Of a stretch of DNA of 6,977 nucleotides, positions 564 to 6,977 are shown in pieces (the first letter of the stretch is position 1; the number at the start of each line of letters is the position of its first letter). The notes beneath the pieces are model-generated. The model was given only the letters and a program-made list of their open reading frames with translations. It had not been told where the DNA came from and ran no database searches. Both the position numbers and the translations under genes were made by a program. The DNA is from Thermodesulfobacteriota bacterium (GTDB taxonomy: Bacteria; Desulfobacterota; Desulfomonilia; Desulfomonilales; Desulfomonilaceae): assembly GCA_030837305.1 (NCBI GenBank), contig JAUPKT010000036.1, positions 1 through 6,977 of the forward strand, read 5' to 3'.

Positions 564-1235
564 ATGGACAATAACGTAAGTCAAGCCATGTGGATTTTGC
601 AGGAGCCGGTGCAGTATGTGTGCCTGGCCTTCATGGCAACCATGTACATCATCAAGATCCGCCAATTGCTTAAGAAACCGTTTCCCCCAGAGAAGGCGGA
701 ACTAAAAGGGGACCGTGTGGCAGGGGCTGTTCATTCTTTGGCGAATGTGCTTCGCCCCTGGGAGATGGAGAGCACGAGAAATCACCTGTATTTTTACGCC
801 GAATTCATGATTTTTCACATTGCAGTGGCACTGACCATTGGTTCCACCTTCTTCATTCCGTTGACCCCATGGCTGATGACTCCCGCTGTGTCCATCGTCA
901 TTATGGTTTTTATGGGTTTGGCATTTCTCATAGGTCTTCGAAGGATCTACCGCAGATTCACCGTGCCTGAGATCAGGATTATAAGCAGCCCGGATGACTA
1001 CTTTGCCGTCATTCTCATGACCACGTTTTTTGCTGTTGGCATGGGGGCGATGTGGAACTGGATTCGCGGCGTTCCGGAGAGTAGCTGGATGTGGGTGTTC
1101 TTTCTCATGACGACCTTCTTCCTTCTTTATGTCCCGTTCAGCAAGATATCTCATTATGTCCTTTACCCGTTCGGCCGCGTCAATTTCGGCATGATATTCG
1201 GTGGTCGCGGGGTGCTGAATAAGAATGTCAAGTAA
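564..1235 (+). CDS. hmcE: HmcE/TmcC-like membrane cytochrome b subunit
   Basis: A 223-residue integral membrane protein resembling HmcE/TmcC, distant relatives of the nitrate reductase gamma subunit. In Hmc/Tmc complexes this subunit anchors the iron-sulfur subunit and carries electrons between periplasmic cytochromes and the cytoplasm or the quinone pool. Five hydrophobic segments are visible near residues 10-32, 75-98, 102-125, 144-164 and 175-192. His85 in the second and His197 after the fifth are plausible haem b ligands; His74 is also near the second helix. A full NarI-type set of four ligands is not obvious, so one haem is safer than two. A basic loop (RRIYRR, 126-131) would face the cytoplasm. 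The length fits HmcE (about 226). The next gene starts 36 bases on, so the two are probably co-transcribed. The E-then-F order favours Hmc over Tmc, where the iron-sulfur gene comes first; the symbol is at family level. Confidence 0.82.
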   Translation: MDNNVSQAMWILQEPVQYVCLAFMATMYIIKIRQLLKKPFPPEKAELKGDRVAGAVHSLANVLRPWEMESTRNHLYFYAEFMIFHIAVALTIGSTFFIPLTPWLMTPAVSIVIMVFMGLAFLIGLRRIYRRFTVPEIRIISSPDDYFAVILMTTFFAVGMGAMWNWIRGVPESSWMWVFFLMTTFFLLYVPFSKISHYVLYPFGRVNFGMIFGGRGVLNKNVK

Positions 1236-1271
1236 ACAATAATCCCAAGAATACTTTTTGGAGGATGAAAA

Positions 1272-2666
1272 ATGGCCGTAGCGGCTGATAAAACAGAAGA
1301 TGTTGCAGAGGTAAAGACTGAGCAGGAGCCGGAGAAGCTCGGGGCTCCCGAACACAGAAAGTGGCCCGTCAAGTCTGAATTTACACCGGAGATGTTGGCC
1401 GAGATGGAGAAGCTTCTCCCCCAGAGGCTGAATAGAGTTGTGGCCACCTCCCTGGCGGGATGTATTCATTGCGGGATGTGCAGCGATGCGTGTCATTACA
1501 GCGTATCCATTCCGGAGGACAAGACCTTGGTGCCTGCCTACAAGGCCGATAGGTTCCGGAAGTGGTATAAGAGCCGTTTTGATTGGATGGCCAAGGTTTT
1601 CCCCTCTTTCGTGGGTGCAAAGGGGCTGTCCAAAGAACTTGCCGAGGAAATGTATGACAAACTGTGGGGTGGATGCACCATGTGCCGTCGGTGTACCTTC
1701 AACTGTCCCATGGGTGTCGATTACGGTCTCACGGTGAGGACGGCGCGCGGCATCATGCAAGCAGTGGGTCGAGTACCCCAGAATTTGCAGGACACCGTGG
1801 ATACGCACTACAACCACGGCAACAATATGGCGGTGCCTCAGGACGAGTTCGTTGAGACCATTGAGTGGATTGAAGAAGAACTTCAGGACGAGGATGGTTG
1901 CGAGAACTTCAAGATCCCTGTGGACAAGAAGGGAGCCAAGTATTTTCTCACCCTGAATCCTCGAGAACCCAAGTATTATCCCCTCACCATTCAAGCCACT
2001 GCGAAGGTCCTGAATGCGGCGGGAGTGGATTTCACCATTTCCTCGCGCTATTGGGATCTTACCAACTACGCCCTTTTTAACGGGAATGATCCGGATGCCA
2101 AGCTGTTTTCTAAATGGCAGGCTGACGACGTTCAGCGGTTGGGCTGTGAGTACTTGCTGTCGGGGGAATGCGGCCACGGGTACCGGGCATTGCGTTGGGA
2201 GCTTTCCAACTGGTTGGGCGGAGTGAATTTCAAGATCACCAGTGTGATGGAACTCATGGCCGACCTGGTTCAGCAGGGCACATTCAAGTTGGACAAGTCC
2301 GTTTGGGCGGGAAAGCGTTTTACCTATCACGACTCATGCAATATCGCACGATCCGGTGGGATCATGGAAGAGCCACGCATCATCATCCGAGCCGCTGTGG
2401 ATGACTTTGCCGAGATGGAACACAACAGAGAACACGGTTTTTGTTGTGGTGGAGGCGGAGGCGCCTTGGCAATGCCTGAATTCAGTCCTCGACGCATAGC
2501 TGCCGGCAAAATTAAGGCTGATGAGATCAGGGCAACGGGTGCAAATGTAGTCTTGCAGTCCTGCCATAACTGCACGGACCAACTCAAAGAGATCTGTGAG
2601 CACTATCACATCAATGCAAAGGTGATGAATTTGGCGGAACTCCTTGCCGCGGCCCTCGTTCTCTAA
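1272..2666 (+). CDS. hmcF: HmcF/TmcB-like HdrD-type iron-sulfur subunit
   Basis: A 464-residue soluble protein related to HdrD, DsrK, TmcB and HmcF; HmcF is about 461 residues. Two ferredoxin-type [4Fe-4S] motifs lie at Cys64/67/70/74 and Cys135/138/141/145, the last followed by Pro. The C-terminal half has a complete CCG motif: Cys356, Cys391-Cys392 in FCCGGGGG, and Cys431/Cys434. This is the type that binds the noncubane [4Fe-4S] cluster of heterodisulfide reductase. An earlier CCG-like module near 225-305 keeps only Cys292 and Cys300, so it is degenerate. No signal peptide or membrane helix is seen, so it should sit on the cytoplasmic face, docked on the preceding membrane subunit and passing electrons to or from an unknown thiol/disulfide or redox partner. 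The start is fixed by GGAGG at 1260-1264, seven bases before ATG. The N-terminal 30 residues are charged and probably disordered. No clear terminator follows. Confidence 0.88.
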   Translation: MAVAADKTEDVAEVKTEQEPEKLGAPEHRKWPVKSEFTPEMLAEMEKLLPQRLNRVVATSLAGCIHCGMCSDACHYSVSIPEDKTLVPAYKADRFRKWYKSRFDWMAKVFPSFVGAKGLSKELAEEMYDKLWGGCTMCRRCTFNCPMGVDYGLTVRTARGIMQAVGRVPQNLQDTVDTHYNHGNNMAVPQDEFVETIEWIEEELQDEDGCENFKIPVDKKGAKYFLTLNPREPKYYPLTIQATAKVLNAAGVDFTISSRYWDLTNYALFNGNDPDAKLFSKWQADDVQRLGCEYLLSGECGHGYRALRWELSNWLGGVNFKITSVMELMADLVQQGTFKLDKSVWAGKRFTYHDSCNIARSGGIMEEPRIIIRAAVDDFAEMEHNREHGFCCGGGGGALAMPEFSPRRIAAGKIKADEIRATGANVVLQSCHNCTDQLKEICEHYHINAKVMNLAELLAAALVL

Positions 2667-2799
2667 GCCATATTTAGGGCATCCTGGGAGATATGCGGTT
2701 ATTCAGCTCACTCCCGATGGGCTGCCGGCGATAGCACGACTGGTTATGAACACACGGCAACGTATGGATAACTTCAAAAGTCTGGATGCTAAGTCTTAA

Positions 2800-2828
2800 T
2801 TGTTTGGTTGAAGCTTCGCGGACATGAT
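2800..2828 (+). promoter_or_regulatory. Weak candidate promoter before the response regulator
   Basis: TTGTTT at 2800-2805 and CATGAT at 2823-2828 are 17 bases apart, matching three and four consensus bases. The 259-base gap after the iron-sulfur gene makes a separate promoter reasonable, but the match is poor and read-through from upstream cannot be excluded. Confidence 0.22.
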
Positions 2829-2841
2829 ATCCTCATTATCA
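2825..2841. promoter_or_regulatory. Dyad TGATA-N7-TATCA
   Basis: TGATA at 2825-2829 and TATCA at 2837-2841 form a perfect 5+5 inverted repeat overlapping the candidate -10 region of the response regulator gene. The half-sites equal those of the palindrome at 405-416 but the spacing is 7 rather than 2, so a shared regulator is only a possibility. Confidence 0.27.
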
Positions 2842-2849
2842 CTTCCAAT

Positions 2850-2870
2850 TCGCCCTCTCCCTTGGGGCGA
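2850..2870 (+). other. GC-rich 6-bp stem-loop in the leader of the response regulator
   Basis: TCGCCC at 2850-2855 pairs exactly with GGGCGA at 2865-2870 across a nine-base loop. It stands 55 bases before the ATG and does not cover the ribosome binding site. There is no T-run, so a terminator is unlikely; mRNA stabilisation or a protein site is possible. Confidence 0.3.
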
Positions 2871-2925
2871 CGGGGATTCGACCGGAGGTCGCAACGATTT
2901 TAAGAACAACTGAAGGAGGCTTGCC

Positions 2926-3315
2926 ATGGGAAAGAAGATACTGGTCATTGATGACGAACCGGACATGGTTACCTATCTGTCCACACTACTGGAAGACAAT
3001 GGCTACGAAGTAGTAACCGCTTCGGACGGTGAAGAGGGTCTGGACAAGGTAAAGGCCGAGAAGCCCGACCTGATTAGTCTTGATCTCCTCATGCCGAATA
3101 AAACGGGAATCAAGATGTATCGCGAGTTGAGAAAAGACCCTGACATAGGCCATATCCCCGTGGTCATGGTGACAGGTTTCGGCAAGGATGATGTTCCGAG
3201 CATGGATTTCAAAAAATGGATTCAGGAACGCTCCATTAAAGGACCCGAGGCATACATTGAGAAGCCGGTACAACCGGAGGTCCTTCTCTCGGCAGTGAAG
3301 AAAGCGATCGGCTGA
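2926..3315 (+). CDS. Single-domain response regulator, Rrf1-like
   Basis: A 129-residue protein consisting of one CheY-type receiver domain and nothing else. The acidic pocket is Asp9-Asp10 with Glu11, the phosphoacceptor is Asp53 (LDLLMP), the switch Thr is Thr83 in MVTGFG, and the conserved Lys-Pro is at 113-114. Tyr110 takes the aromatic switch position. The stretch between strand 4 and strand 5 (about 86-108) is longer than in CheY. No DNA-binding, cyclase or methyltransferase domain follows, so output must be through protein contact or onward phosphotransfer. In Desulfovibrio vulgaris the hmc operon is followed by the regulator gene rrf1, so the position after an hmcF-like gene supports an Rrf1-type role. 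The kinase downstream is the obvious phosphodonor. AAGGAGG at 2913-2919, six bases before ATG, predicts strong translation. Confidence 0.9.
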   Translation: MGKKILVIDDEPDMVTYLSTLLEDNGYEVVTASDGEEGLDKVKAEKPDLISLDLLMPNKTGIKMYRELRKDPDIGHIPVVMVTGFGKDDVPSMDFKKWIQERSIKGPEAYIEKPVQPEVLLSAVKKAIG

Positions 3316-3378
3316 GAGTACGGAAGGAGTTATCGGGTTGCAGAGACGGGTTTCAGACCCGCTCCAACCCGGACTCTC
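3314..3378 (+). other. Three-tier nested stem-loop between regulator and kinase genes
   Basis: Three inverted repeats are nested around one axis. GAGAGT (3314-3319) pairs with ACTCTC (3373-3378). CGGGTTG (3334-3340) pairs with CAACCCG (3365-3371). CGGGT (3347-3351) pairs with ACCCG (3357-3361) around TTCAG. The outer arm overlaps the regulator stop codon. The left bulge holds GGAAGGAG, a strong Shine-Dalgarno-like sequence. The structure ends 11 bases before the kinase ATG. No T-run follows, so processing, stability or control of kinase translation is more likely than termination. Confidence 0.55.
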
Positions 3379-3418
3379 AATCAGGAACCATGGTGAACAA
3401 GGCCTTAACTTTTATTAA
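3338..3418 (+). CDS. Possible 26-codon leader ORF overlapping the kinase start
   Basis: A TTG at 3338 stands eight bases after AAGGAG (3324-3329), a better ribosome site than the one at the kinase ATG. The frame runs 26 codons and stops at 3416-3418, inside the beginning of the kinase gene in a different frame. Such overlap could couple kinase translation to translation through the stem-loop. There is no homology to lean on, the start is TTG, and it may be chance. Confidence 0.2.
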   Translation: MQRRVSDPLQPGLSIRNHGEQGLNFY

Positions 3419-5648
3419 CAAGTTTACCCACAGCCTGCGGTTCAAACTCAGCTTTTACGCAGGGCTTGTAGTCTTTCTCACCATGGTGGCATTTACGTAT
3501 CAGAGTTTAAGAACGCAAGAGACCAATCTCGTTAACGCGAAAGTAGAGGAAGCCTTGAAAGACTCTGAAGTTATCAAGGCAGCCATTTGGAACGGCATGA
3601 TGACAAAGGACCGGGAAGTCATCAGGCAGATAGTGCGCAAGATAGGAGAAAAAGGCGGATTCGCTGAGATCAGCGTGTATGATTGGAACGGTTTGCTTCA
3701 CTATGCGGCTGCCGACCAGCCCGATTTTCGACCTGGCGGCAGGGAGCCGAACCTGGAAATCAAGAATCACCTGGCAGATTTTAAGGACGATTCACGGATT
3801 CGACATGAGTTTGCAGAGGACGGGAAGATGCTCAGGGTTGTCAACCCTCTTCTCAATACCAAGAGTTGCTCCACCGCCGCGTGCCACGCCCACCCTTCGA
3901 CGGAAAAGGTCCTCGGCGTGCTGGAACTGAAGATTCCCGTGGAACCACTCCGGAAAGATATCATCAGTCAGGCACGTAACACCGTGCTGTTCGCCTTTGT
4001 ACTCTTTGTTCTCGTTTCCACAATCATAGGAATCGGAGTAATTCTTCTGGTGAGCAGACCAATGAAAAGATTGTCTGTGAAGGCCAACAGACTCGCAAGG
4101 GGTCAATATACGCCGAGCGCACCGATCGAGGGCAGTGATTCGGTGGCGGCATTGTCCAGGGCCTTTGACGAAATGAGTCGGCAGATAACGAATCGGACCA
4201 TAGAACTCGAGAAGAGTCGCTACATGTACAAGACACTTTTTGAGGAGGTGCCTTGTTATCTCACCGTTGTGAACAAGGATTATGGCTTATCAAGGGTCAA
4301 CACTTCGTTTAAGAACCTTTTTGGGGACCAGCGTGGTCGGAAATGCTTTGTGGCATACAAGGGGCTTGACTCTCGGTGCGCCAAGTGCCCGGTTGAGAAG
4401 ACCTTTGCCGACGGCGCCGCCCATCAATCGGAAGAAACGTGGATGGTGAACAGCCAGAAGATCCACGTCATGGTCAAGACGTCACCCATATTCGATGACA
4501 CGGGCTCCGTAGCCGAAGTTATGGAGATGGCCGTTGATGTGACCCGCATGAAGCGACTCCAAATGGAGTTGGAAAAGAAACAGCAGGAATACAAGTACCT
4601 TTACGAAAATGTCCCCTGTTATATTACCATTGTTGATCCAGATTTCAACATCGTGCAGACCAACAAGCTGTTTGAGCGCGATTTTGGGGCAAACATCGGA
4701 GAAAAGTGCTTTCAGATATACAAAGGTGCGGATTCAAAGTGTGAGAACTGTCCCGTAGAAAAGACATTCCTCGATGGGGAGACCCACACCTCTGAAGAAG
4801 TGTGGCGGAGAGACGGTGAGGACACATATATTATCGTGTACACGGCCCCGGTGTACGACGAACAGGGCCATATAAAGGCCGTCATGGAGATGAGCACCAA
4901 CATTACCGAGGTCAAGCGTCTTCAGGGAGAACTTATGGTGTTGGGGGAAACCATAGCGGGGATGTCCCACACCATAAAGAATATCCTCACGGGACTGCAG
5001 GGTGGTGTTTACGTCGTGGACTCCGGATTGAAGCGCGGAAATGAAGAGAGGACTCGTGTCGGCTGGGACATGGTGAAGAACAATGTCGGAAAGGTCTCTG
5101 AACTGGTCAAAGGTATCCTTTACGCCTCCAAAGAGAGGAAGCCGGAGTACCGTGAGTGCAATCCCGTGGAGATCATTACTGAAGTGTGTGACCTATACGA
5201 CTCTCGTGCCGCATCCGACGGAATAGAACTGGTGAAAGAACTTCAGCCGGAGATGGGCCCTTGCCTGCTTGATCCGACGGGTATTCACAGCGTCCTGTCC
5301 AATCTCATGGCCAATGCAATGGAAGCATGTAGGAATATTGATTCCAAGGAGCGGTCAAGGCGGATTTTGGTGAGGGGACACACTTCTGAAGAGAGTCTTT
5401 TCATCAGCGTCACCGACAATGGGCAGGGGATGCCGCAGGAAGTCAAGAGCAAGCTCTTCAACAAGTTTTACAGCACGAAAGGTGCTCGGGGAACCGGGCT
5501 AGGTCTGGTAATCACGAGAAAGGTGATTGAGGAGCACCACGGACGTATAATTGTGGAGTCGGAACCAGAAAAAGGAACGACTTTCACCATAGAGATTCCT
5601 TTGAGGTACGGACATGAGCATGAGGAAAAGTTTAAGGCAGCCGTATGA
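3390..5648 (+). CDS. Haem-c/tandem Cys-PAS membrane sensor histidine kinase
   Basis: A 752-residue sensor kinase. Order: membrane helix (about 20-38), periplasmic domain (39-196), second helix (198-221), HAMP linker (222-270), PAS1 (about 280-395), PAS2 (about 401-516), and a catalytic core. His527 in MSHTIKN is the phosphoacceptor; the N-box has Asn638 and Asn642, the G1 box Asp676-Gly680, and a GTGLGL box follows. The periplasmic domain ends with Cys160-X4-Cys165-His166, a c-type haem motif with the long spacing known from some cytochromes c3, followed by the VLGVLEL stretch seen in related haem sensors. Each PAS carries four Cys in identical register: 289/319/330/333 and 410/440/451/454, ending CXXCP. 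Together they suggest redox sensing on both sides of the membrane. The ATG has only a weak AGGA close by; GTG at 3393 is the alternative. Its likely partner is the preceding regulator. Confidence 0.92.
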   Translation: MVNKALTFINKFTHSLRFKLSFYAGLVVFLTMVAFTYQSLRTQETNLVNAKVEEALKDSEVIKAAIWNGMMTKDREVIRQIVRKIGEKGGFAEISVYDWNGLLHYAAADQPDFRPGGREPNLEIKNHLADFKDDSRIRHEFAEDGKMLRVVNPLLNTKSCSTAACHAHPSTEKVLGVLELKIPVEPLRKDIISQARNTVLFAFVLFVLVSTIIGIGVILLVSRPMKRLSVKANRLARGQYTPSAPIEGSDSVAALSRAFDEMSRQITNRTIELEKSRYMYKTLFEEVPCYLTVVNKDYGLSRVNTSFKNLFGDQRGRKCFVAYKGLDSRCAKCPVEKTFADGAAHQSEETWMVNSQKIHVMVKTSPIFDDTGSVAEVMEMAVDVTRMKRLQMELEKKQQEYKYLYENVPCYITIVDPDFNIVQTNKLFERDFGANIGEKCFQIYKGADSKCENCPVEKTFLDGETHTSEEVWRRDGEDTYIIVYTAPVYDEQGHIKAVMEMSTNITEVKRLQGELMVLGETIAGMSHTIKNILTGLQGGVYVVDSGLKRGNEERTRVGWDMVKNNVGKVSELVKGILYASKERKPEYRECNPVEIITEVCDLYDSRAASDGIELVKELQPEMGPCLLDPTGIHSVLSNLMANAMEACRNIDSKERSRRILVRGHTSEESLFISVTDNGQGMPQEVKSKLFNKFYSTKGARGTGLGLVITRKVIEEHHGRIIVESEPEKGTTFTIEIPLRYGHEHEEKFKAAV
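4245..4920 (+). repeat. Tandem PAS repeat within the kinase, 121-residue period
   Basis: Two copies of a Cys-containing PAS domain follow each other. Matching landmarks are VPCY (288-291 and 409-412), KCF (318 and 439), the CXXCPVEKTF block (330 and 451) and the E-W pair after it, each exactly 121 residues apart. The copies have diverged in between, so this is an old internal duplication rather than a recent DNA repeat. Retention of all four Cys in both copies implies selection on them. Confidence 0.8.
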
Positions 5649-5691: not shown

Positions 5692-6222
5692 ATGAACGGA
5701 ATCGGTTTGTGCGCAGTTTTTGCGAGACAGGGTGATTGGGCCTTCGATTATGCCCTGGGCCTCGCGCGACACCACAAGACTAAACTGAACATTTTTCATT
5801 TTTTGGAATCTCCCTATGCACTGCGGAGAGATGTGGTCTTTGTGGATGCTGAAAAGACGCGCACCACTCAGGTCACACCCGAGTTTATTGAAAAGAAAGA
5901 CAAGGAAATGAGAGAGATGTTTGATGACCGACTTGGCGATTACGTGGAAGTCGGTTTTCGGCTTTGCGAAGGCAACGACGAATTTGAACTGCGCAAGTGT
6001 TTCAAAAAGGGTGATTATGAAGTGTTGGTCATAGGCTATAAAGAAAAGGGAGCGGCCTTTGGCGGAACCACGACCATAGAGGAGTTTGCCGGAAAGTTTA
6101 AAGGACCTGTGGTCTTGGTAGGTCCGGACTTCCCGGATTCTTATTTCTTGAACGAGGCCGCAGAGAAACGTCTCAGCGACTTGTTGATCCCTGACGGCAG
6201 GTGGAGGCGTATAGAGACATGA
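5692..6222 (+). CDS. UspA-type universal stress protein family member
   Basis: A 176-residue cytoplasmic protein with the outline of a Usp domain. An N-terminal beta strand and helix (ALGLARHHKTKLNIFHFL, about 21-38) are followed by a charged middle. The typical late segment DYEVLVIGYKEKG (108-120) leads to GPVVLVGP (138-145). The nucleotide motif G-X2-G-X9-G(S/T) of ATP-binding Usp proteins is not clean: Gly115, Gly120 and Gly124-Gly125-Thr126 are there but spaced differently, so ATP binding is uncertain. The C-terminal 30 residues go beyond the usual Usp end. It begins 43 bases after the kinase stop and is probably co-transcribed with it. Placement beside a redox phosphorelay suggests a stress or signalling accessory, but no substrate can be named. 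Confidence 0.78.
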   Translation: MNGIGLCAVFARQGDWAFDYALGLARHHKTKLNIFHFLESPYALRRDVVFVDAEKTRTTQVTPEFIEKKDKEMREMFDDRLGDYVEVGFRLCEGNDEFELRKCFKKGDYEVLVIGYKEKGAAFGGTTTIEEFAGKFKGPVVLVGPDFPDSYFLNEAAEKRLSDLLIPDGRWRRIET

Positions 6223-6502: not shown

Positions 6503-6841
6503 GTGAAATTTTCAAGCCATGAGGAATTTGAACTTCACGTACACAAATGTTTCGACAAGATTTTCGAGCTGCTCATGAAGGTTGACACCGAGGTGAAGCG
6601 AGAGGCGGAGAAGGAGGAATCAGAGGGCAATTATGGTGTCATGTCCGATCTCAGAGACTGGGTCGAAGAGATCATCCTGCACTGTCATCTGGCCTGGCAA
6701 TATCACAGACTGTCCAAAGGCCCCAGTAGCAGAAACACGTGGGATGCCATGCAAGACAAAACCTCCACAGACGAGAACACGAATAGAGACCACTCGCCGA
6801 ACAGTTCGGCCTGGACTTTAGAAGCTACTGAGACGTTATAA
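6503..6841 (+). CDS. Small His/Cys-containing helical protein, unknown function
   Basis: A 112-residue protein not recognised by family. Residues 3-70 look like two or three amphipathic, strongly charged helices with no membrane segment or signal peptide. Two His/Cys clusters stand out: HVHKC at 12-16 and HCH at 60-62, with His6 and His68 nearby. They could face each other in a helical bundle and bind a metal or haem, but this is inference. The tail from about 71 on is rich in Ser, Thr, Asn and Asp and probably disordered. The GTG start is chosen from the ribosome site at 6488-6493. It is the last plus-strand gene and lies 280 bases after the Usp gene, so co-transcription is uncertain. An iron or redox accessory would fit the setting but is not shown. 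Confidence 0.6.
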   Translation: MKFSSHEEFELHVHKCFDKIFELLMKVDTEVKREAEKEESEGNYGVMSDLRDWVEEIILHCHLAWQYHRLSKGPSSRNTWDAMQDKTSTDENTNRDHSPNSSAWTLEATETL

Positions 6842-6886
6842 ATCGGTCGTTGATGAAGTCGCCTATGGGAGGTCTGGGATTCTTCT

Positions 6887-6977
6887 TCACTCGAGCACGG
6901 CCCCTGCCCTTTTCAACTGTTCTAATGAGTCCGCGGCCCCTTCTGGGGTCACACCCCTACACAAATCAGTGCGAATT
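6887..6977 (-). CDS. C-terminal end of a minus-strand gene, partial
   Basis: Reading from the right edge on the minus strand, a frame of 29 codons is open and stops at 6889-6887. The residues look like real protein: a TDLCRG stretch, then VTPEGAADSLEQLKRAGAVLE, an amphipathic helix with a small hydrophobic end. Codon choice resembles the other genes. The rest of the gene lies outside the window and the family cannot be told from 29 residues. It would converge on the small gene at 6503-6841, with 45 bases between the two stops and no clear terminator there. Confidence 0.5.
   Translation of the reverse strand, partial: IRTDLCRGVTPEGAADSLEQLKRAGAVLE

Follow-up and report, generated by a model that had tools for sequence, protein, structure and literature searches.

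What do the two subunits of a small putative electron-transfer complex connect, and what is a two-component pair doing beside them? This question is raised by a stretch of 6,977 nucleotides of a Desulfomonilaceae genome (Thermodesulfobacteriota; contig JAUPKT010000036.1, here C537), which we call the window and which is the whole contig of a metagenome-assembled genome that is 81.6% complete. It encodes a membrane subunit (E), an iron-sulfur subunit (F), a single-domain response regulator and a sensor histidine kinase. A sequence-only reading of this DNA had listed these four open reading frames (ORFs); all are present and intact, and downstream of them lie one Usp-like and one small conserved ORF. 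That reading had also named the first three genes HmcE, HmcF and Rrf1, and had proposed a transmembrane two-subunit conduit whose redox state is read by its own phosphorelay. Our analyses point to a different answer: E-F would be an EtfD-like electron wire from menaquinone to the cytoplasm, which is likely switched by the kinase and the receiver through phosphorylation. We give this reading a probability of about 0.5.

The E and F subunits resemble EtfD

E (positions 564..1235, plus strand, 223 amino acids) is a NarI/TmcC/HmcE-like membrane subunit according to NCBIfam models, a profile match to NarI and a structure model; its Pfam match is below the cut-off. As a single sequence compared with the PDB, E gave nothing better than an E-value of 0.22, to antibody chains. 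The E profile matches NarI with an E-value of 2.7e-7, and the AlphaFold model of E (pLDDT 90.3) has structural matches that include NarI and EtfD. A single haem b site is predicted, formed by H85 (816-818) and H197 (1152-1154), both of which are kept in 121 out of 121 homologues. This pair aligns with H56 and H205 of NarI, not with H66 and H187. A second transmembrane His pair is present in the TmcC rows shown in the alignment and is not present in the rows shown for E proteins of the module type.

F (1272..2666, plus strand, 464 amino acids) contains two Fer4 motifs (C64, C67, C70, C74 and C135, C138, C141, C145) and one CCG domain (C356, C391, C392, C431, C434, with C300/H302), as judged from Pfam (Fer4_8 and CCG), NCBIfam and a profile match to EtfD. 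In an alignment of 13 F-type proteins, which includes no row of the types B to D described below, the eight Fer4 cysteines and C300, H302, C356, C391, C392 and C431 are invariant (13/13); C434 is missing in DsrK only. The F profile matches residues 408-742 of EtfD (9ojn_A), the CCG half of the EtfD chain, with an E-value of 1.7e-19. Residues C356, C391, C392, C431 and C434 together with H302 align with the six ligands of the noncubane cluster D2 of EtfD, as these are given in the accessible part of PMC13083937. The same part of that paper calls D2 non-catalytic owing to its His ligand, and describes in the solved EtfD one haem b with two His ligands and a menaquinone 4-5 Å away. A D2-type His is also present in DsrK and TmcB, and therefore this residue is not decisive for the partner of F. 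Of the ligands of the linear [3Fe-4S] cluster of EtfD, its second CCG cluster (Cys503, 538, 581, 584), F has only the equivalent of Cys581 (C300), and the other three are missing. We therefore say that E-F would work like EtfD, and not that it is an EtfD.

E-F thus combines what is typical of EtfD/HdrDE-like enzymes: a NarI-type fold, a single pair of haem-b histidines, two Fer4 motifs and the motifs of a CCG cluster. The predicted cofactors, based on homology, are one haem b, two cubane clusters and one noncubane Fe-S cluster; the coupling to quinone and the topology are likewise predictions. In having a single haem-b His pair and no distal one, E is like EtfD, which has one haem and whose CCG half is the part that F matches; by analogy, E-F is probably a wire from menaquinone to the cytoplasm. 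The transmembrane conduit of the sequence-only reading is probably not what these genes encode, given that E lacks the second His pair of TmcC.

Receivers fused to F-type subunits in other families

The window receiver (2926..3315, plus strand, 129 amino acids), identified by Pfam and a receiver alignment, is a single Response_reg domain (83.9 bits) without an output domain; its phospho-acceptor is D53 (3082-3084). The acidic pocket and phospho-acceptor (D9, D10 and D53) are invariant in an alignment of 16 receivers, six of which are fused to F.

These fusions were seen when F was searched in 395 genomes of the phylum and the positions of the matches were compared with those of receiver matches in an equal-sized draw. 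Matches to F of more than 390 bits (41-57% identity) occur in 19 genomes outside the family; we took loci from 17 of them (not from G145 and G173), plus three weaker ones. Together with the Desulfomonilaceae loci (type A), four gene orders can be distinguished. Type B is E-F-receiver-kinase (3/3 loci), and type C is E-F-Usp-(about 209 amino acids)-receiver-kinase (5/5 loci), with HEAT repeats in the one ~209-residue protein tested. In type D (9/9 loci, spread over nine genomes and three other Desulfobacterota families), E is followed by a fusion of F and the receiver. Fer4_8, CCG and Response_reg all score above the Pfam cut-off within one chain in the two type D fusions tested; those of L113 and L114 were confirmed by translation, and five were seen as single ORFs. 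The best 120 of the 2700 homologues of the L119 fusion carry both PF00072 and PF02754. A kinase follows downstream on the same strand in seven type D loci. In L113 the kinase is on the opposite strand, at a distance of about 3 kb; L114, which ends 747 nucleotides after the F part, has none. The separate receiver of the window takes the same place after F as the fused receiver of type D. Since the F-type subunit and the receiver are one polypeptide in related bacteria, it is likely that phosphorylation controls the enzyme directly, and not only its genes.

The three weaker loci (L124-L126) contain TmcB-like genes; no receiver is nearby in L124, and L125 and L126 have other response regulator and Usp-like genes on the opposite strand. 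In types B to D, genes identified by Pfam before E encode an Rrf2-type regulator (L112:8417-8956), macro domains (L119:7692-8225 and L123:5263-5853) and TPR proteins (L107:6695-7279 and L111:4630-5199). Many further F-like matches (for example on G069:C6 and G265:C38; 37-42% identity) contain exactly one in-frame TGA, which may encode selenocysteine in a CCG-type family.

The subunits belong to neither the Hmc nor the Tmc branch

The best-scoring NCBIfam models for E and F include HmcE and HmcF. The names HmcE and HmcF nevertheless do not hold. E and F score 65 and 270.6 bits with the HmcE and HmcF models (NF045716 and NF045711; cut-offs 275 and 750), and 45.2 and 274.9 bits with those of TmcC and TmcB (NF045723 and NF045724; cut-offs 240 and 735); the curated cut-off for DsrK is likewise missed. 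A tree of 52 F-type proteins, for which the program warned of long branches, also rejects the identity of F with HmcF or TmcB. It unites 10 Tmc, 5 Hmc and three TmcB-like rows in one branch of their own, 18 rows in all (support 100/99); the Tmc and Hmc names were assigned from best match and neighbours, and cut-offs were tested on the G002 copy only. Types A and B (14 rows) and types C and D (11 rows) form two groups, each supported 100/100. On these sequences, F is a member of a sister group of TmcB/HmcF, and not of Hmc-Rrf1. The fusion of L112 branches before type C and the other type D rows, and therefore the fusion either arose early and was later split, or arose more than once.

The name Rrf1 was not confirmed either: the best model for the receiver is DVU0259_DivK (NF045717; 112.8 bits), itself below its cut-off of 160, and an Rrf1 sequence was outside the comparison. 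In D. vulgaris, DVU0259 lies in the Tmc region, DVU0258-0266.

A Tmc/Hmc-type locus is present elsewhere in four genomes of the family (G002, G003, G004 and G011), with the order receiver, kinase, a protein of about 440 amino acids, TmcC-like, TmcB-like, a cytochrome with 16 CXXCH motifs, proteins of about 313 and of 411 amino acids, and a kinase that may be preceded by a receiver. In the G002 copy, TmcD (514 bits), TmcC (311) and HmcA (424) are above the cut-off, and TmcB (709; cut-off 735), HmcB (399; 420) and HmcC (479; 550) are below it. The loci L093:4823-16951, L094, L095 and L101 have a hybrid order, TmcD-TmcC-TmcB-HmcA-HmcB-HmcC between two receiver-kinase pairs, and not separate tmc and hmc sets. 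The window genome has the left part of such a locus on contig C461 (receiver 63% and kinase 32% identical, and a protein 54% identical to the G002 TmcD). The receiver-kinase pair of the window therefore has paralogues at Tmc/Hmc loci (57-64% identity for the receiver, 31-33% for the kinase), and since that locus is present elsewhere, E-F is a separate, smaller unit.

Conservation of the gene order in Desulfomonilaceae

Seventeen other genomes of the family were searched, which gave, with the window, 21 type A loci of 4 to 19.5 kb. As the ORF caller was greedy and hid some genes (receivers at several loci, and the fusions of L113 and L114), tblastn and translation took its place. Of the 17 genomes, 13 have one or more F orthologues (58-87% identity); none was found in G001, G009, G013 and G016, each of which is 82% complete. 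Near relatives of F in named records are from Desulfomonile/Desulfomonilaceae metagenome-assembled genomes and one deltaproteobacterial one (9 loci).

E adjoins F in all 20 type A loci that have sequence before F, and in 37 out of 37 when all module loci with such sequence are taken. Locus L056, which ends 188 nucleotides after F, was left out of the downstream counts; some of the remaining 20 (L045, L061) are cut by contig ends. A receiver lies beside F in 13 of these 20, a kinase near E-F in 16 (once on the other strand), a Usp-like gene in 16 and ORF6 in 13, and all six genes are ordered on one strand in 11. The latter include L051 (4673-8409) of the near-complete genome G004, in which the kinase is interrupted by a 464-amino-acid ORF on the other strand.

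No ORF of at least 80 amino acids with more than one CXXCH was found in the 21 type A loci; the window itself has only 563 nucleotides before E. Among the 38 module loci of all types, L113 is the one that has such a gene, an ORF with six CXXCH motifs. The sequence-only reading had described a stand-alone order with no multihaem gene directly upstream, and in this it was right. Of the two findings that would have counted against it, neither was made: the kinase is not rare beside E-F in relatives, and no complete hmc set was found in their flanks.

The Usp-like protein (5692..6222, plus strand, 176 amino acids) was recognized by a Pfam Usp match below the cut-off (E-value 0.039) and by its recurrence in type A and C loci. 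ORF6 (6503..6841, plus strand), a small conserved protein without a family, has no Pfam match and a GTG start judged by alignment. In L104 (9381-11519, G005), the gene next after another F-like one (37%) encodes a Usp homologue (56%), so that Usp may recur as a partner of CCG proteins. L100 (7870-13285, G015) has three consecutive F-type genes; a gene of roughly 240 amino acids stands before each of two of these. Between positions 6722-6977 of the window and the beginning of contig C177 (L098:1-256, G000) there is a match of 94%; C177 may continue the window, or this may be a repeat. Scans for promoters and terminators did not exceed chance: one sigma-54-like site with one mismatch, on the minus strand (2.23 expected), six sigma-70-like sites (5.8 expected) and eight terminators (6.8 expected).

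The kinase and its sensor domains

The kinase (3390..5648, plus strand, 752 amino acids) has two hydrophobic segments (18-36 and 203-221) flanking a periplasmic Cache-like domain, followed by HAMP, two PAS domains with four cysteines each, the H527 box (4968-4970) and HATPase. PAS1 (4236..4550, plus strand) contains C289, C319, C330 and C333, and PAS2 (4599..4919, plus strand) C410, C440, C451 and C454. In an alignment of the window kinase with the best 120 of 173 database matches, C289 is kept in 119 of the 121 rows and the other seven cysteines in all. PAS2 corresponds to the four-Cys PAS beside the kinase core that is common to 15 out of 15 kinases spanning types A to D.

The predicted haem c site, identified by alignment and a structure model, is C160-X4-C165-H166 (3867..3887, plus strand), which lies between the two hydrophobic segments and is a CX4CH, not a CXXCH, motif. 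It is kept in 121/121 aligned kinases and in 18/18 of a second set, four members of which are paralogues from the Tmc/Hmc locus. Sites of the CX4CH type bind haem in other cytochromes c. The HmcA proteins of L093, L094 and L101 have 16 CXXCH and no CX4CH each, and therefore covalent haem at CX4CH in Desulfomonilaceae is a prediction. The sequence-only reading had a haem c outside the membrane and two Cys-PAS domains inside; the motif, the conserved cysteines and the two hydrophobic segments agree with it, but the motif is not the canonical one and the haem is predicted.

In the AlphaFold model of the periplasmic domain (pLDDT 74.6 overall, below 60 around the motif), the CX4CH is at model residues 124-130, in the loop before the last strand (138-147), as in sCache_heme domains, although model confidence at the motif is low. 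The periplasmic domain is similar to Cache domains and to GSU0935, a haem-c sensor (3b42, E-value 8.6e-7); in a second structural comparison, 3b42 was not among the 50 matches listed. The Pfam family Mcp40H-20_sensor scores 22.9 bits (cut-off 27).

The haem-type domain and the transmembrane segments are absent from all 14 aligned type B to D kinases. Among the kinases examined, the haem-type domain is, by sequence, restricted to Desulfomonilaceae, and the conserved core is E-F-receiver-kinase with four-Cys PAS. The proposed link between enzyme and signalling holds, and the F-receiver fusions of other families make it stronger than the window alone could show; the haem-type sensor stands outside the conserved core. 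Gating of E-F by the kinase fits the fusions at least as well as a kinase that reads the redox state of E-F.

A proposed mechanism and its alternatives

We propose that the kinase would sense the redox state (or nitric oxide) through its four-Cys PAS domains and, in Desulfomonilaceae, the periplasmic haem-type domain, and would phosphorylate the receiver. The phosphorylated receiver may then dock on F, by which electron flow would be opened or closed. This receiver probably does not control transcription directly, because it has no output domain and the type D receiver is part of the enzyme.

As cytoplasmic partner of E-F, the DsrC/sulfite-reduction system is most likely, and ETF less likely. 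Among the 32 module genomes, dsrA is above the cut-off in 29 (not in G132, G186 and G199) and DsrC in 28 (not in G131, G132, G186 and G266); dsrA is present in 58 of the 118 genomes of a phylum draw that includes module genomes. This enrichment fits a partner in sulfite reduction. For the Tmc complex of D. alaskensis G20, whose mutants are impaired in H2 use, DsrC or ferredoxin has been suggested as partner (PMC4215793, accessible part). Tentatively, and with somewhat less than even confidence, we suggest that the receiver, on or fused to the CCG subunit, gates electron flow between menaquinone and sulfite reduction directly, so that a redox-sensing kinase would control respiration at once, without transcription.

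Several points weigh against a phosphorylation-switched wire. Among the 20 type A loci, seven have no receiver beside F and four have no kinase. The gap between F and the receiver is often near 290 nucleotides in type A (259 in the window), and therefore separate transcription is possible. The join of types A and B with C and D in the tree, which includes two long rows, is weak (85/77). The dsrA enrichment is uncorrected for relatedness, and the partner of EtfD, on which the analogy is built, is ETF and not DsrC. Finally, fusion and linkage alone establish neither an effect of the receiver on F activity nor the direction of the signal.

Of the alternatives, the one that survives best, though improbable, is a co-inherited redox-stress cassette in which the kinase responds to nitric oxide or a redox change in the periplasm and the target of the receiver is another protein, without contact with E-F. 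The likeness of the periplasmic domain to Cache and GSU0935 agrees with it, as signalling sCache_heme domains have nitric oxide sensor properties according to the accessible part of PMC12889525, and so do the Usp-like genes of the type A loci and the loci that keep E-F-Usp without a kinase (L060). However, the receiver is fused to F in every type D locus, and it lies next to F also where the kinases have no haem-type domain.

A reversed signal, in which F reports the state of its clusters, the fused receiver is a docking and reporting part and a second receiver or a sigma-54 activator carries the output, is rather doubtful. A further single receiver does follow the kinase in L107, L110, L119, L121, L122 and L123 (type B or D), and sigma-54 activator-like genes precede E in several loci of types B and C, but neither stands beside E-F in the window or recurs in type A loci, and the receivers keep their full phospho-acceptor site.

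Least probable is an HmcEF-type transmembrane conduit to periplasmic cytochromes, read by the haem-c kinase, which would tune hmcE-hmcF expression via an Rrf1-like regulator: the likeness to HmcE and HmcF models, the periplasmic haem-c-type motif, the paralogous pair at the Tmc/Hmc-type locus and the Tmc operons without TmcA that occur elsewhere (PMC10553843, accessible part) are set against missed equivalog cut-offs, the position of F outside both branches, an E protein without the NarI H66/H187 pair, the lack of multihaem genes in 21/21 type A loci, a receiver without output domain and promoter-like signals not above chance.

A phosphorylation-switched E-F wire would matter since CCG enzymes (DsrK, TmcB, HmcF, HdrD and EtfD) have a central place in anaerobic energy conservation. 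If true, the recurrent CCG-receiver fusion with its own kinase would offer a compact, testable case in which phosphorylation controls the respiratory electron flow of sulfate reducers, and it suggests a role for single-domain receivers near such complexes. Full-text searches, whose coverage mostly leaves out subscription papers, gave no description of a two-component receiver acting on a CCG enzyme, and the accessible part of PMC2702500 has nothing on a receiver-CCG fusion.

Comparison with known systems

The closest known counterpart of E-F is EtfD of Mycobacterium smegmatis (PDB 9ojn; PMC13083937, accessible part), with which it shares a NarI-like membrane part, one haem-b His pair and Fer4 and CCG clusters. 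Unlike in EtfD, E and F are separate genes, a receiver and a kinase are added, and most linear-cluster ligands are missing in F. NarI of NarGHI shares with E the fold and one haem-b His pair (the H56/H205 equivalents), whereas the equivalents of H66 and H187 are missing in E, and the partner of E is a CCG protein. The kinase resembles the sCache_heme sensors GSU0935 and Tll0287 in its Cache-like periplasmic fold with a Cys/His motif before the last strand (PMC12889525, accessible part); these sensors have CXXCH, whereas the window kinase has CX4CH. The DVU0259-family receivers are, like that of the window, single receiver domains, although the window receiver is about 12 residues longer and misses the family cut-off. 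TmcC/TmcB and HmcE/HmcF of sulfate reducers are homologous subunits in the same E-F order, and a paralogous receiver-kinase pair is present at the Desulfomonilaceae Tmc/Hmc locus. In contrast to these complexes, the window has one His pair instead of two, and no TmcA/HmcA, TmcD, HmcB or HmcC at the locus; the one-haem E sets these modules apart from the Hmc and Tmc conduits.

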